This document shows, one piece after another, positions 6,741 through 26,384 of a stretch of 34,778 bases of DNA (positions are counted from its first letter, which is position 1; each line of letters starts with the position of its first letter). Under the pieces are notes generated by a model. That model searched no databases, had not been told where the DNA came from, and saw only the letters and a program-made list of their open reading frames with translations. Source of the DNA: Bacillota bacterium (lineage in GTDB: Bacteria > Bacillota > Negativicutes > Sporomusales > CTSoil-080); NCBI GenBank assembly GCA_017889725.1, contig JAGGAE010000033.1, positions 1 to 34,778 on the forward strand, read 5' to 3'. Made by a program: the position numbers and the translations under genes.

Positions 6741-6890
6741 AATGGGTGGGCACAGGGAATGCTTTTTTTAGTGTTGGGATTTTTTGTCTTTGCAGGAGCA
6801 TCCTGCATGCGGTAAGATAACAAGGCATGCTTGAGAACGCAAATCCGAATACCGGGCGATAGAAGGACCGGTTGAGTTGGAGTTGAGTAA
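6741..6890. other. Intergenic gap where phoH is usually found
   Basis: 150 nt between yqfD and pgpH. In most Firmicutes phoH (~950 nt) sits here; nothing of it is seen. The gap contains a perfect small hairpin GCAGGA-GCA-TCCTGC (6792-6806) and an 18-codon hydrophobic open stretch starting at ATG 6760, which has no clear ribosome binding site and is not called as a gene. Confidence 0.5.
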
Positions 6891-12688: not shown

Positions 12689-13247
12689 ATGAAGTCTCTA
12701 TCTCATTATTTTCTTAGTGACGGTGTTTGCGGTTTATGAAATTTTAAATATTGCTGAAGCAATATTTGGTAAATTTTTGCCGGTTAAAATTCCAGGTCTT
12801 AGTTTGCTGGTAGGAATGGTAGTTATTATTGTAGTTGGCTGGATGTCGTCATTTTGGCTGTCGCAGCGGCTTATTGCTTTTGGCGAGTGGCTGCTCAGTA
12901 CCATACCGGTGGTTAAATTTATTTATAACAGTGTAAAACAGCTTTCTACCGCCGTTTTCGAAGCAGATCGCCTTTTAAATCAGGCGGTACTTGTGCCTTA
13001 CCCGCATCCTGGAGTCAAAGCGTTAGGCTTTATTATGTCGGATTTGCCGGAACATATGTCCTGCCTGCTCGACGAGGAACATGTATGTGTGTTCGTACCG
13101 ATGAGTGTCAATTTAACCAATGGATTTAATATTATCGTGCCGAAGAGGGATATAATATCTTTAGATGTTACAAGCGAAAGTGCTTTGCAATATGTCCTTA
13201 CTGCCGGGGCGGTTATGCCGAGGCAGCAAGAGGACACAAAATCTTAG
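12689..13247 (+). CDS. DUF502 membrane protein, reading frame broken near the 5' end
   Basis: The promoter, the AGAGAGGTGATTT ribosome binding site and ATG 12689 are intact and encode MKSLSHYFLS, which matches the usual DUF502 N-terminus (M-K-x-L-x-x-Y-F-L). That frame then stops at TGA 12737. The rest of the protein (VTVFAVYEILNIAE onwards, 176 aa) is in another frame from about 12714. The family's expected hydrophobic G-L-L-V-L-L-P-like stretch of TM1 is missing, so roughly 25-30 nt appear to be deleted. The remaining part has TM2 (about SLLVGMVVIIVVGWMSSFWL) and the conserved IPVVKFIYNSVKQL and PHPGVKALGFI segments. Family function is unknown. GTG 12717 could serve as a start but has no ribosome binding site. 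Confidence 0.8.
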
Positions 13248-15577: not shown

Positions 15578-16015
15578 ATGGAAGAAATCACACTGGCCAA
15601 AATTGACCTAATCCGGGAACGAACAGGAATTTCTTATCGGGAAGCGCGGGATGTTTTAATTAAAACGCAGGGAGATGTAGTGGAGGCGCTCGTTGAACTG
15701 GAAGGACATAAAAAAAACCATTGGACAGAAGAGTTTTCGGTAAAATCCGGTGAAGTCATAGATAAAGTAAAAGATCTTATCCGGGAAGGCAATGTTACTA
15801 AAATCCGGGTTAAGCATGATGACAAGGTGTTGGTAGAAATACCGGTAACTCTGGGCGCAATTGGGGCAGTTGTTTTGCCGCAACTTGCGGCGCTCGGCGT
15901 TTTGGTGGCCGTATTTAAACGTTGCACTATTGAGGTGGTGCGCGGTGAGTCCAGTGAGGAACGGGAGGATATGGTCGGGACGGAAGAACGGGAGTCGAAT
16001 CATAATAAACTTTAA
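15578..16015 (+). CDS. DUF4342 domain protein with N-terminal UBA/EF-Ts-like helix bundle
   Basis: 145 aa from ATG 15578, preceded by AAGGGGG; the frame is also open from 15530, but that start has no good ribosome binding site. Residues 1-45 (IDLIRERTGISYREARDVLIKTQGDVVEALVELE) look like the UBA-like N-domain of EF-Ts. Residues about 50-128 form the DUF4342 part, with IREGNVTKIRVKHDDKVLVEIPVT and a hydrophobic glycine/alanine-rich stretch (about 88-112) that may be a membrane hairpin. The tail is acidic. Function unknown. Confidence 0.8.
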   Translation: MEEITLAKIDLIRERTGISYREARDVLIKTQGDVVEALVELEGHKKNHWTEEFSVKSGEVIDKVKDLIREGNVTKIRVKHDDKVLVEIPVTLGAIGAVVLPQLAALGVLVAVFKRCTIEVVRGESSEEREDMVGTEERESNHNKL

Positions 16016-16040
16016 AGAGTATTGATAAAGATATTGTTAA

Positions 16041-16066
16041 AAATCCCCCAACGGGGGATTTTTTTA
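16041..16066 (+). terminator. Intrinsic terminator after the DUF4342 gene
   Basis: AAATCCCCC (16041-16049), AAC loop, GGGGGATTT (16053-16061), followed by a T tract. It closes the yqfC-to-DUF4342 run. Confidence 0.9.
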
Positions 16067-16159
16067 TTGGCTATTCCTGCCAAAAAGCAGGAGAGTTAAT
16101 CGTAATAGCGAATTACTATAAATAGATAAATTAATTGCAAATTAAAGGATGTGCTAACG

Positions 16160-16441
16160 GTGGTGAATTTAACTCTCGTAGAAGGAAAAGATAGAGGGAA
16201 AATTGTTGTATATGCTTTAAGTACTTGCGGCTGGTGTGAGAAAACCAAACAGTTCTTGCAAGAACAAGGTTTACAATATTATTATGCAAATGTAGATTTG
16301 ACATCGGGTGATGAACGTAAGGAAATTATGGAGGAGATCGGACGCTGGAATTCAAGAAAGTCTTTTCCGACAATCGTGGTAAAAGATAAGATAGGAATTG
16401 TTGGGTTTAATAAAGAGTCGTTATTGGAGGCAGTGGAATAA
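16160..16441 (+). CDS. Glutaredoxin family protein
   Basis: About 93 aa. The redox motif S-T-C-G-W-C-E sits in the first beta-alpha unit, followed by NVDLTSGDERKEIM, the cis-Pro SFPTIVV segment and GFNKESLLEAV, a complete glutaredoxin/thioredoxin-like fold. Start candidates are GTG 16151, 16160 and 16163; AAAGGA at 16144-16149 is best spaced for 16160. The stop overlaps the next start by 1 nt, so this gene and the FTR-like gene form a pair. It probably receives electrons from that reductase instead of from glutathione. Confidence 0.85.
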   Translation: MVNLTLVEGKDRGKIVVYALSTCGWCEKTKQFLQEQGLQYYYANVDLTSGDERKEIMEEIGRWNSRKSFPTIVVKDKIGIVGFNKESLLEAVE

Positions 16442-16932
16442 TGTCTGATAAAGTCGATAAACTATATGACAGGCTGAAAAAAGAGGCGGAAAGCAGCGGG
16501 TATCATTTAAACCCGGATGTCGAGTTTACCAAAATGTTGCTTGACGGCTTGGTTAAAAATGAGGAGCGCTATAGTTATCTCGCGTGTCCTTGCCGTTTGG
16601 CGGAAGGGGAAAAAGAGGTTGATCAGGATATCATCTGTCCTTGTGATTACCGGGATGGGGACCTAAATGAGTTTAATATGTGCTATTGTGGTCTTTATGT
16701 TAGCGGCAAGTATACAAAAAGAGGGGAAGAGATACATTCCATTCCTGATCGCCGCTTGCTGGAGCCGGACAAGACGGATGAAAAATTGGATAGGCGCAGC
16801 TTGTCCCAAGAGTTGCCGTTTCCTATTTACCGGTGCAAGGTATGCGGGTATTTGTGTGCACGGGAAGCTCCGCCGGATACCTGTCCTATCTGCCATGTAT
16901 CGCATGAACGTTTTGAGGTATTCCTTGCCTAG
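16441..16932 (+). CDS. Ferredoxin:thioredoxin reductase catalytic chain fused to rubredoxin
   Basis: 163 aa. Residues about 5-95 form the FTR catalytic subunit: C49-P-C51, C66-P-C68 and C81-Y-C83 supply the 4Fe-4S ligands and active disulfide (the classic motif is CPC, CPC, CHC; the last is CYC here). Residues about 128-162 form a rubredoxin-like iron site with C132-K-V-C135 and C148-P-I-C151. FTR passes one-electron equivalents from ferredoxin to a thiol partner; the rubredoxin domain may take the place of the external donor. There is no variable (FtrB-like) chain nearby. It starts on the stop codon of the glutaredoxin gene, which makes that protein the likely substrate. Confidence 0.9.
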   Translation: MSDKVDKLYDRLKKEAESSGYHLNPDVEFTKMLLDGLVKNEERYSYLACPCRLAEGEKEVDQDIICPCDYRDGDLNEFNMCYCGLYVSGKYTKRGEEIHSIPDRRLLEPDKTDEKLDRRSLSQELPFPIYRCKVCGYLCAREAPPDTCPICHVSHERFEVFLA

Positions 16933-16937
16933 GTCTC

Positions 16938-21168: not shown

Positions 21169-21613
21169 TTATAGAATAGTATTAGTTTCGACGTTGTACT
21201 GCAACGAATTGGTTGTCCAAACGTTTCCATTTTGGTTAACCGTAACATTGCCGGAGAAAGTGCCGATTTTGCTTCGCCAGTTAAATTCGGCTTTGTTTGC
21301 GGTAATAACCAGTCCGGTACGGCTAAAACTTACACCTCCGTCGATTTCTGCCCGATCTTGGGCTCCGTAAACATAAACACTATCGCCGGTAAAACAGATA
21401 TCATCTTGTGTTACTGTTACACCACCGGATCCCCATACTTCAAGTGAACCAACGCTAACTTTTGCTTGATTGGCGGTAATGATTCTATTTTTCACTTGAA
21501 GATACACATTGCCGCTTAGCACGTACAGACCGGTATTTATATCGTAATAAGAGGAATCCGATTGAATAACCGGTTTAGGTAAGTACAGTTAGGATAATGG
21601 AACGGTTTTTCAT
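21169..21613 (-). CDS. LptA/OstA-like protein, reading frame broken in the signal-peptide region
   Basis: From ATG 21613 the minus strand encodes MKNRSIILTVLT, the start of a signal peptide, and then hits TAA at 21577-21575. The next frame, open from about 21576, continues as KPVIQSDSSYYDINTG followed by LSGNVYLQVKNRIITANQAK and repeated beta-strand units (GDSVYVYGAQDRAEIDGG, ANKAEFNWRSKIGTFSGNVT) typical of the OstA/LptA N-terminal fold, which carries LPS across the periplasm in diderms. The hydrophobic core and cleavage region expected in between are missing, suggesting an out-of-frame deletion. GTG 21522 is the first conventional start in the downstream frame but leaves no export signal. 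It stands alone, outside any lpt operon. Confidence 0.7.
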
Positions 21614-21747: not shown

Positions 21748-22690
21748 TTGACTATCCGTGAACGAATAGAGCAACTCGAGCTAACGCTTCTTTCGCCGCT
21801 GGCGGCAAAAAGCTGTGAGGCGGTCAGAGACAGGGAAGAAGCCCCTTGCGATTTTCGCAGTGCGTATCAGCGAGATCGGGATCGTATTCTTCATAGTAAA
21901 GCCTTTAGACGTGACGCATAGTTTGGAAACGGCACAAATTTCTAGGACTATTGCCCGGGGATTACGGCTTAATGAGGATTTGGTAGAAGCTATTGCCTTA
22001 GGGCATGATGTCGGGCATACTCCTTTTAGCCACGCGGGGGAAGAAGCGCTTAAGGAAATTTTGGGACAGTATGCTCATAATGAACAAAGTCTTCGCGTTG
22101 TGGAATGTTTAGAGCGGGATGGTCAAGGGCTGAATTTGACCCGGGCGGTTAAGGATGGAATCGCGAATCATACTGGACCGAATAAGCCATATACTTTGGA
22201 AGGAAATATTGTGCGTATTGGCGACCGCATTGCTTACCTTTGCCATGATTATGACGATGGTATGCGGGCAGGATTGCTTAGACAAAGTGATTTACCGCCT
22301 AATGTTAGATGCGTGCTGGGCGAGAAACCTTCGTCTATGATTAGCATTATGGTGGCGGATATGATCCGGGTTTCCGAGACCGCTGGCGAAATAATGTTGT
22401 CGTCGCCCGTGCAGGCGGCCATGGATGAATTTAGGCAGTTTATGTTCCGGGCCGTATATAATTCGGAAAAACTGGACGATGAGCGTCGTAAGGCCAAGTA
22501 TGTTATTCATAAACTTTATGAACATTATATGTCTTTTCCGGAGGCTTTGCCGAAAGAATTTATTGATAAAGAAAGTCGATGGAACATCGAAACCGCTGTT
22601 GTCGACTATATTGCAGGTTTGACCGACACATACGCTATTTACACCTTTGAAAAACTGTTTGTTCCTCCTAATGGAATAATAGCGAGGTAA
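21748..22690 (+). CDS. dgt: dGTPase-family HD phosphohydrolase, reading frame broken near residue 55
   Basis: TTG 21748 behind AGGGAG starts a good Dgt N-terminus: SPLAAKSCEAVRDREE, DFRSAYQRDRDRILHSKAFRR (residues about 36-55). The frame then reads D-A-stop at 21913-21921. The protein resumes in another frame at 21914 with THSLETAQISRTIARGL and the HD dyad in IALGHDVGHTPFSHAGEEAL, and runs to 22690 with a normal C-terminus. Family members have about 20 residues between FRR and THS (the L-K-x-K-T-Q-V-F region); these are absent, so about 59 nt appear deleted. The product would hydrolyse dGTP (or other dNTPs) to nucleoside and triphosphate. ATG 21815 in the downstream frame is not a plausible start. 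Confidence 0.85.
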
Positions 22691-22949: not shown

Positions 22950-24694
22950 ATGAGAGACACGGGATATGACGGTTTGATCGACGAGGGAAAAATTACTGGG
23001 GTTGTTGTCCGTTTCACCATGAAAAAACGCCGTCTTTTTCTGTGACTCCTGATAAAGGTTTTTTTTATTGTTTTGGCTGTCAGTCTGGAGGAAACGTTTT
23101 TAATTTCTTGATGAAAATTGAAAATCTTGATTTTCCGGATGCGGTAAAATTGTTGGCTAACAAGCTAGGGGTTCCGTTGCCGGAAAAGGAAAAATCCGCC
23201 CGAGACCGGCAGTTAGAACGGGAAATGGCTCAGCTTTACCGTTCTAATGATCTGGCAAGGGATTTTTTTCACTCATGTCTGGTTAATACTGGATATGGGA
23301 AGGAGGCACGAGAATATTTATCTAATAGGGGGATTACCGCCGAAATTATTGATGAATTTAAGTTGGGGTTTAGTCCTCCCGCATGGGATAAACTAACAGG
23401 GGCGCTTAGCGAGCGAGGGGTTATGCCAGAGACGCTGGTTAAAGCCGGGTTGGCGGTACAGCGCTCCGGCAGTGGTGTTTATGACCGGTTCCGGGGGCGT
23501 ATCATGTTCCCGATTAACGATGCACAGGGGCGGGTTGTGGGGTTTGGCGGCCGGGTGCTTGATGTCTCACAGCCTAAGTACTTAAATACGCCCGAAACCC
23601 TCGTTTTTAACAAACGCCATATCCTGTATGGTTTTGATGTTGCTAATTCATTTATCCGGCAAACCGGCAAGGTGGTTGTAGTTGAAGGATATATGGATTT
23701 GATTGCGCTTAGAAATAGCGGGATAAAAAATGTGGTTGCCTCGTTAGGTACGGCGTTTACGCCGGATCAGGCCCGTAAACTGGTTCGTGTTCGGGCCCGG
23801 GAAATCTTTTTTGCTTATGACAGTGATGCCGCCGGGCAGGAGGCAACAGTGCGAGCTTTAAATACGGTTAAAGCCTTGGGATTTGCTGTTCGCATTGTTG
23901 CAATGCCTGATGGTAAAGATCCGGATGAGTATGTCAGGAAACATGGGCAATCGGCGTTTAATGAGTTGATCGAACAAGCTCCCGGGTTACTTGAGTATCA
24001 AGTGAAACGGGCGATTGAGACCACGGATACTTCAGGACTTGAGGGCAAGGTTGCCGTTGTTGCAAAAGCGGTACCGGCGTTAGCCGAGGCGGATAATGCG
24101 GTAGAGGTTGCCAATCATATTCGTAATTTATCTGAGACATTAGCCATTGATGAAGGGGCAATACGTTCCGAGATACGAAAATATATTGCTCAAAGTAAAA
24201 AGGATAAAAATGTAAGTTTAGGGAAGAATATTAATATTTCCAGCCTTTCGCAACGGCCGGGACAAAGCATAGTTGTGGCAGAACGTCAGCTCATTCGGTT
24301 AATGTTTGAAGACTTTTCTATTATTCCTTATGTTGAAACCCAGATCAGTGGAGATGATATTCAGGGACGGGAGCGCAAAATAATAATCAAATCCCTGTTT
24401 GCTGCGTATAATATGGAAAAAAGTTTGATTCCGGACGTTTTTGCGTTAACGCTGCCTGGAGAGGCGGCAAATGAGTTATCCAATATTATGGTTATGGAAA
24501 TGGATTTTGAAGACATAGCCAAAGTGGTTGATGATTTGATTAAGGCCATTCGATTGGCTTGTCTCAAAGGGCTACTGGAAGAACACAGCTTACGAGCTCA
24601 AGAATTAGAACGCATGGGGGATAGCAACTTTCTGCAGGAATTAGCCGAAAGTCAGCGAATACATGATGAAATTAGTAAATTACGCCTGTTATAA
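22950..24694 (+). CDS. dnaG: DNA primase DnaG, reading frame broken near residue 12
   Basis: GGTGGTG and ATG 22950 begin MRDTGYDGLIDE, a normal primase N-terminus, but that frame ends at TGA 23043. The rest reads in another frame from about 22982: RGKNYWGCCPFHHEKTPSF and FYCFGCQSGGNVFNF, the CHC2 zinc-binding domain with its Cys/His ligands. The catalytic TOPRIM domain follows (VVVEGYMDLIAL, about 200 residues further, with FAYDSDAAGQEA), then the C-terminal DnaB-binding part. About 20 residues, normally I-V-x-V-I-x-x-Y-V-x-L-K-K, are missing, corresponding to an out-of-frame deletion of about 61 nt. The next possible start, GTG 23042, would lose half of the zinc site. Primase is essential, so a sequence error or an unusual decoding event must be considered. 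It lies upstream of rpoD as usual. Confidence 0.92.
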
Positions 24695-25971: not shown

Positions 25972-26047
25972 TCCTCGATAGCTCAGTTGGTAGAGCAATC
26001 GGCTGTTAACCGATCGGTCGTAGGTTCGAGTCCTACTCGAGGAGCCA
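25972..26047 (+). tRNA. tRNA-Asn (GTT)
   Basis: 76 nt including encoded CCA. Acceptor TCCTCGA/TCGAGGA, D-arm, anticodon loop CTGTTAA with GTT, T-loop TTCGAGT. Confidence 0.97.
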
Positions 26048-26058
26048 ATTATGATTAC

Positions 26059-26088
26059 AAAACAGGCTTTCTTCGGAAAACCTGTTTT
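26059..26088 (+). other. Hairpin between tRNA-Asn and tRNA-Met
   Basis: AAAACAGG (26059-26066) pairs with CCTGTTTT (26081-26088); inside it, TTTC and GAAA pair around a TTCG tetraloop. There is no long T tract, so it may be a processing or partial-termination element. Confidence 0.55.
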
Positions 26089-26098
26089 ACCTTCTCTA

Positions 26099-26173
26099 GG
26101 GCCTATAGCTCAGCGGTAGAGCAACCGGCTCATAACCGGTCGGTCCCTGGTTCGATCCCAGGTGGGCCCACCA
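26099..26173 (+). tRNA. tRNA-Met (CAT)
   Basis: 75 nt including CCA. Acceptor GGGCCTA/TGGGCCC, anticodon loop CTCATAA with CAT. A paired first base (G1-C72) excludes the initiator form; a tRNA-Ile with lysidine-modified CAT cannot be fully excluded by eye. Confidence 0.85.
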
Positions 26174-26182
26174 ATTTTATAT

Positions 26183-26257
26183 GGCCCGTTGGTCAAGTGG
26201 TTAAGACACCGCCCTTTCACGGCGATTACAGGGGTTCGAATCCCCTACGGGTCACCA
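26183..26257 (+). tRNA. tRNA-Glu (TTC)
   Basis: 75 nt including CCA. Acceptor GGCCCGT/ACGGGTC, anticodon TTC, T-loop TTCGAAT. Only 9 nt after tRNA-Met. Confidence 0.96.
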
Positions 26258-26260
26258 TTC

Positions 26261-26336
<76 letters not shown>

Positions 26337-26350
26337 TATCAAAATTTATG

Positions 26351-26384
26351 ATTAAGCTACTTTTACGAGTAGCTTAATTTTTTT
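26351..26384 (+). terminator. Terminator of the tRNA cluster
   Basis: ATTAAGCTACT pairs with AGTAGCTTAAT around a short loop, followed by TTTTTTT. Confidence 0.9.

Follow-up and report, generated by a model that had tools for sequence, protein, structure and literature searches.

A 61-nt Out-of-Frame Gap in dnaG Is Very Likely an Assembly Artifact of a Fragmented Draft Genome

Overview

The dnaG gene carried on the 34,778-nt stretch of DNA analyzed here (the window) lacks 61 nt and is broken out of frame, and on the strength of the sequence comparisons presented below this gap is very likely an artifact arising in the assembly of a fragmented, metagenome-type draft genome. In the organism itself dnaG is very probably intact and ordinary, and the break is almost certainly no real biological feature. 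The window is contig 47 of the draft genome G000 (G000:C47), an assembly of 1.79 Mb in 108 contigs which is 65% complete, and was compared with the syntenic contig of the closest relative, a genome of the same genus (G001, 3.3 Mb). Named relatives suggest that the lineage lies within Negativicutes, near Sporomusa. For the wider survey, stretches amounting to ~528 kb of G000 and ~1.0 Mb of G001 were sampled, and the 193 genes common to both (~158 kb) were compared. The broken genes of the window are listed in Table 1.

Table 1. Broken genes in the window, with their junctions, and the heptamer within dnaG.
Feature	Position	Strand	Remarks
DUF502 gene, first 10 codons	12689..12719	+	Left of 29-nt gap; junction 12719/12720
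DUF502 gene, remainder	12717..13247	+	Different frame
LptA/LptC-like gene	21169..21613	-	~43 nt of signal-peptide region missing near 21579
dgt, 5' part (dNTP triphosphohydrolase-like, HD domain)	21748..21911	+	Left of 56-nt gap
dgt, remainder	21911..22690	+	Different frame; junction 21911/21912
dnaG, true 5' end (MRDTGYDGLID)	22950..22981	+	Left of gap; G001 match, translation
dnaG, junction	22980..22983	+	61 nt missing; exact point ambiguous by 1-2 nt; G001 alignment
dnaG, remainder	22973..24694	+	Different frame; CxxH..CxxC (CHC2) zinc site, catalytic core, DNAG_N, Toprim and DnaB-binding domains
G GGA AAA heptamer	22985..22991	+	In ATG frame; -1 slip leads to DnaG frame; sequence

Disruption of dnaG

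Alignment with the syntenic G001 gene demonstrated that exactly 61 nt are absent at the dnaG junction, the G001 dnaG being intact and having, relative to the window, 61 extra nt between ATCGA and CGAGGG. The original prediction of a split in the zinc-binding region, with about 61 nt missing rather than a plain frameshift, was thereby confirmed. Translation from the ATG at 22950 gives MRDTGYDGLIDEGKITG with a stop soon after, while the conserved DnaG frame (..RRGKNYWGCCPFHHEK), which is open up to the stop at 24694, is a different one, and no frame continues unbroken from the start codon to the end of the zinc domain. Since a 78% match to G001 dnaG persists over the 49 bp upstream of the junction, start codon included, the start is genuine and no rearrangement has occurred.

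The block bounded by DGFID and CPFH measures 37 residues in every relative locus that yielded it (34 or more, a few of which are one genome seen twice). The window DnaG would retain 17 of these, leaving 20 missing, in agreement with the approximately 20 residues first reported as absent. Neither a second dnaG nor a second copy of the zinc domain was found in G000, and the missing stretch had no convincing match elsewhere in that genome.

The Zn_ribbon_DnaG (PF01807), DNAG_N (PF08275), Toprim and DnaB-binding domains were all detected above the Pfam cut-off and in order, so that the window gene shares the domains and domain order of bacterial DnaG and differs in that 61 nt encoding part of the zinc domain are absent from the contig. 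As a result of the gap, the match to the zinc-domain profile begins only at position 25 or 26 of 98. The window and G001 proteins are 79% identical, and the dgt-dnaG-rpoD neighborhood is common to both. To the right of the gap dN was 0.135 and dS 1.45 (dN/dS ~0.09); dnaG is therefore under strong purifying selection.

Recoding and Downstream Initiation

It had been proposed that, if the DNA is not in fact present, the organism must decode around the break. Programmed -1 frameshifting at the G GGA AAA heptamer would join MRDTGYDGLIDEGK to NYWGCCPFHH.., producing a DnaG minus 20 zinc-domain residues. The phase of the heptamer is right for this and a slip does enter the DnaG frame, but the heptamer is ordinary coding sequence within the conserved RGKN codons, and it is not accompanied by downstream RNA structure. 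The RNA 3' of the heptamer folds worse than its shuffled counterparts (z = +2.28), with 200 of 200 shuffles folding at least as well. The product would also be without a block found in every relative checked. Furthermore, recoding is unable to restore the 20 missing residues, no recoding signal is common to the broken genes, and dgt, rpsI, argH, argC and others, which are described below, would be left unexplained. Frameshifting at this site is considered extremely improbable. The same minimal credence is given to the broader reading that the gaps are real, with -1 frameshifting at GGGAAAA producing a shortened DnaG and internal deletions being tolerated in other essential genes.

A functional shorter DnaG could alternatively begin downstream, at GTG 23042, from which a frame of 550 aa containing all the catalytic domains is open. 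In such a protein, however, the zinc site would be without its CxxH half, with the Zn_ribbon match reduced to profile positions 49-96, whereas the full zinc domain is kept in all relatives checked, and this possibility is likewise barely credible.

Further Breaks in the Window and in the Draft Genome

The implication that the break was specific to dnaG did not hold. Within the window the dgt and DUF502 genes are broken likewise, and the LptA/LptC-like gene brings the total to four. The last is a probable further case, the region being divergent, and its reading frame comes to an early stop (MKNRSIILTVLT*) because of the ~43 missing nt.

Comparison with G001 identified ~12 clean deletions of 29-160 nt in G000 within the ~158 kb of homologous coding sequence, a frequency of approximately one per 13 kb. 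Those on contig 8 affect cdaA (118 nt), ilvE (114 nt), argH (74 nt), argC (160 nt), a Memo/AmmeMemoRadiSam-B-like gene (101 nt) and rpsI (47 nt), the latter encoding ribosomal S9 and being, by whole-genome search, the sole G000 copy, split across two frames. On contig 2 a gap of 120 nt takes out a conserved 40-residue stretch of ilvD (named from its sequence), and on contig 4 the gene for the NiFe hydrogenase large subunit has lost 121 nt. Only two of the 11 exactly sized deletions (114 and 120 nt) are divisible by 3, and therefore nothing kept the reading frame.

In the reverse comparison no such clean gap was found in G001, and seven further relatives examined over ~93 kb had zero frame-breaking gaps. 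As the clean gaps recur across the draft and are absent from its relatives, loss of the missing DNA in assembly is strongly supported, and since a dozen unrelated genes, rpsI included, show similar short gaps, an assembly error is almost certain. Of the two outcomes originally put forward for dnaG, assembly error or decoding around the break, it is the former which the data favor.

The sole long gap among the seven further relatives was observed in the dnaG of G002 (CTSoil_080, L034/L029), where 28 residues are cleanly absent, in frame, between the Toprim and C-terminal portions of an otherwise intact gene. This gap may reflect genuine variation or a loss of the same sort in assembly.

True deletions in a decaying genome, which would make real pseudogenes of dnaG, dgt, rpsI and the others, were also considered. 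Multiple genes are indeed broken, and the G000 assembly is smaller than that of G001, though it is just 65% complete. Decaying genes are expected to carry stops and small indels, and tolerated deletions to favor lengths divisible by three. Inside the compared genes (~158 kb) there were, however, no premature stops when non-overlapping best ORFs were checked and no frameshifts of 1-10 nt. Neither stops or small indels nor a preference for multiples of three was seen. The broken set moreover includes the sole-copy essential genes dnaG and rpsI, and strong purifying selection acts on what remains of the sequence, all of which leaves decay a very slim chance. Break sizes indifferent to frame, together with no other signs of decay, are consistent with an assembly artifact.

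Two apparent exceptions were traced during this survey. Many "mid stops" in one listing came from antisense ORFs, and the few 1-2-nt frame changes listed were really overlapping or upstream alternative-frame matches.

Origin of the Gaps

With respect to how the assembly artifact may have come about, the sequences would most likely have been lost where short stretches without read coverage lay between paired contig ends, which were then joined with the intervening N's lost. Such closing-up would be expected to give near-blunt junctions and missing pieces smaller than a typical insert length, with no regard for frame. The loss would have occurred in assembly or clean-up. No N runs were present in the sampled G000 contigs, two contigs having been left out of this count. 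All six contig 8 deletions (at ~2088, 2703, 4328, 10940, 13614 and 16335 of L118) fall within ~17 kb, and none was found in the other half of that contig (L163, 20001-36246), while four breaks lie together in the window. Clustered breaks argue against a uniform error; patchy coverage would yield clusters.

Several more specific mechanisms were tried and dropped. A GACG motif considered as a common junction signal occurs close to the gaps in dnaG, dgt and the DUF502 gene but is absent at the junctions of the LptA-like gene, argH and rpsI. A fixed k-mer length of ~60 was ruled out by sizes spanning 29 to 160 nt, and microhomology-driven joining by the 0-2 nt shared at the junctions that could be read closely, with G001 serving as proxy. 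Hairpin-driven loss was too weakly indicated, the missing pieces showing a slight excess of structure over G001 pieces taken at random (mean z ~-0.8). A bias toward 5' gene ends, suggested by the window, fails for rpsI, argC and argH.

A passage of one published report names technical artifacts as one possible origin of apparent pseudogenes (PMC11017572). Like the spurious pseudogenes that assembly or sequencing error creates in draft genomes, the breaks described here interrupt the frame of conserved genes under selection. They differ in being clean losses of 29-160 nt and not single-base indels. The main value of these observations is as a warning that the silent internal losses in this draft mimic pseudogenes or recoding sites. 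In any scan for frameshifts or recoding, other, unrelated genes of the assembly concerned should be examined for like breaks.

Other Features of the Window

In Firmicutes phoH usually sits between yqfD and pgpH. In both the window and G001 the yqfD-like and pgpH-like genes are separated by ~150 bp (6741-6890 in the window), with no phoH between them. Four tRNA genes (Asn, Met, Glu and Val) are located at 25972-26336; two listed ORFs, 25987-26355 and 26162-26377, read through these tRNAs and do not represent genes. The region 15946-16936 contains ~0.8 kb more than the corresponding G001 locus and includes an ORF (16441-16932) which, named by sequence only, resembles the catalytic subunit of ferredoxin-thioredoxin reductase with a rubredoxin-like end fused to it.
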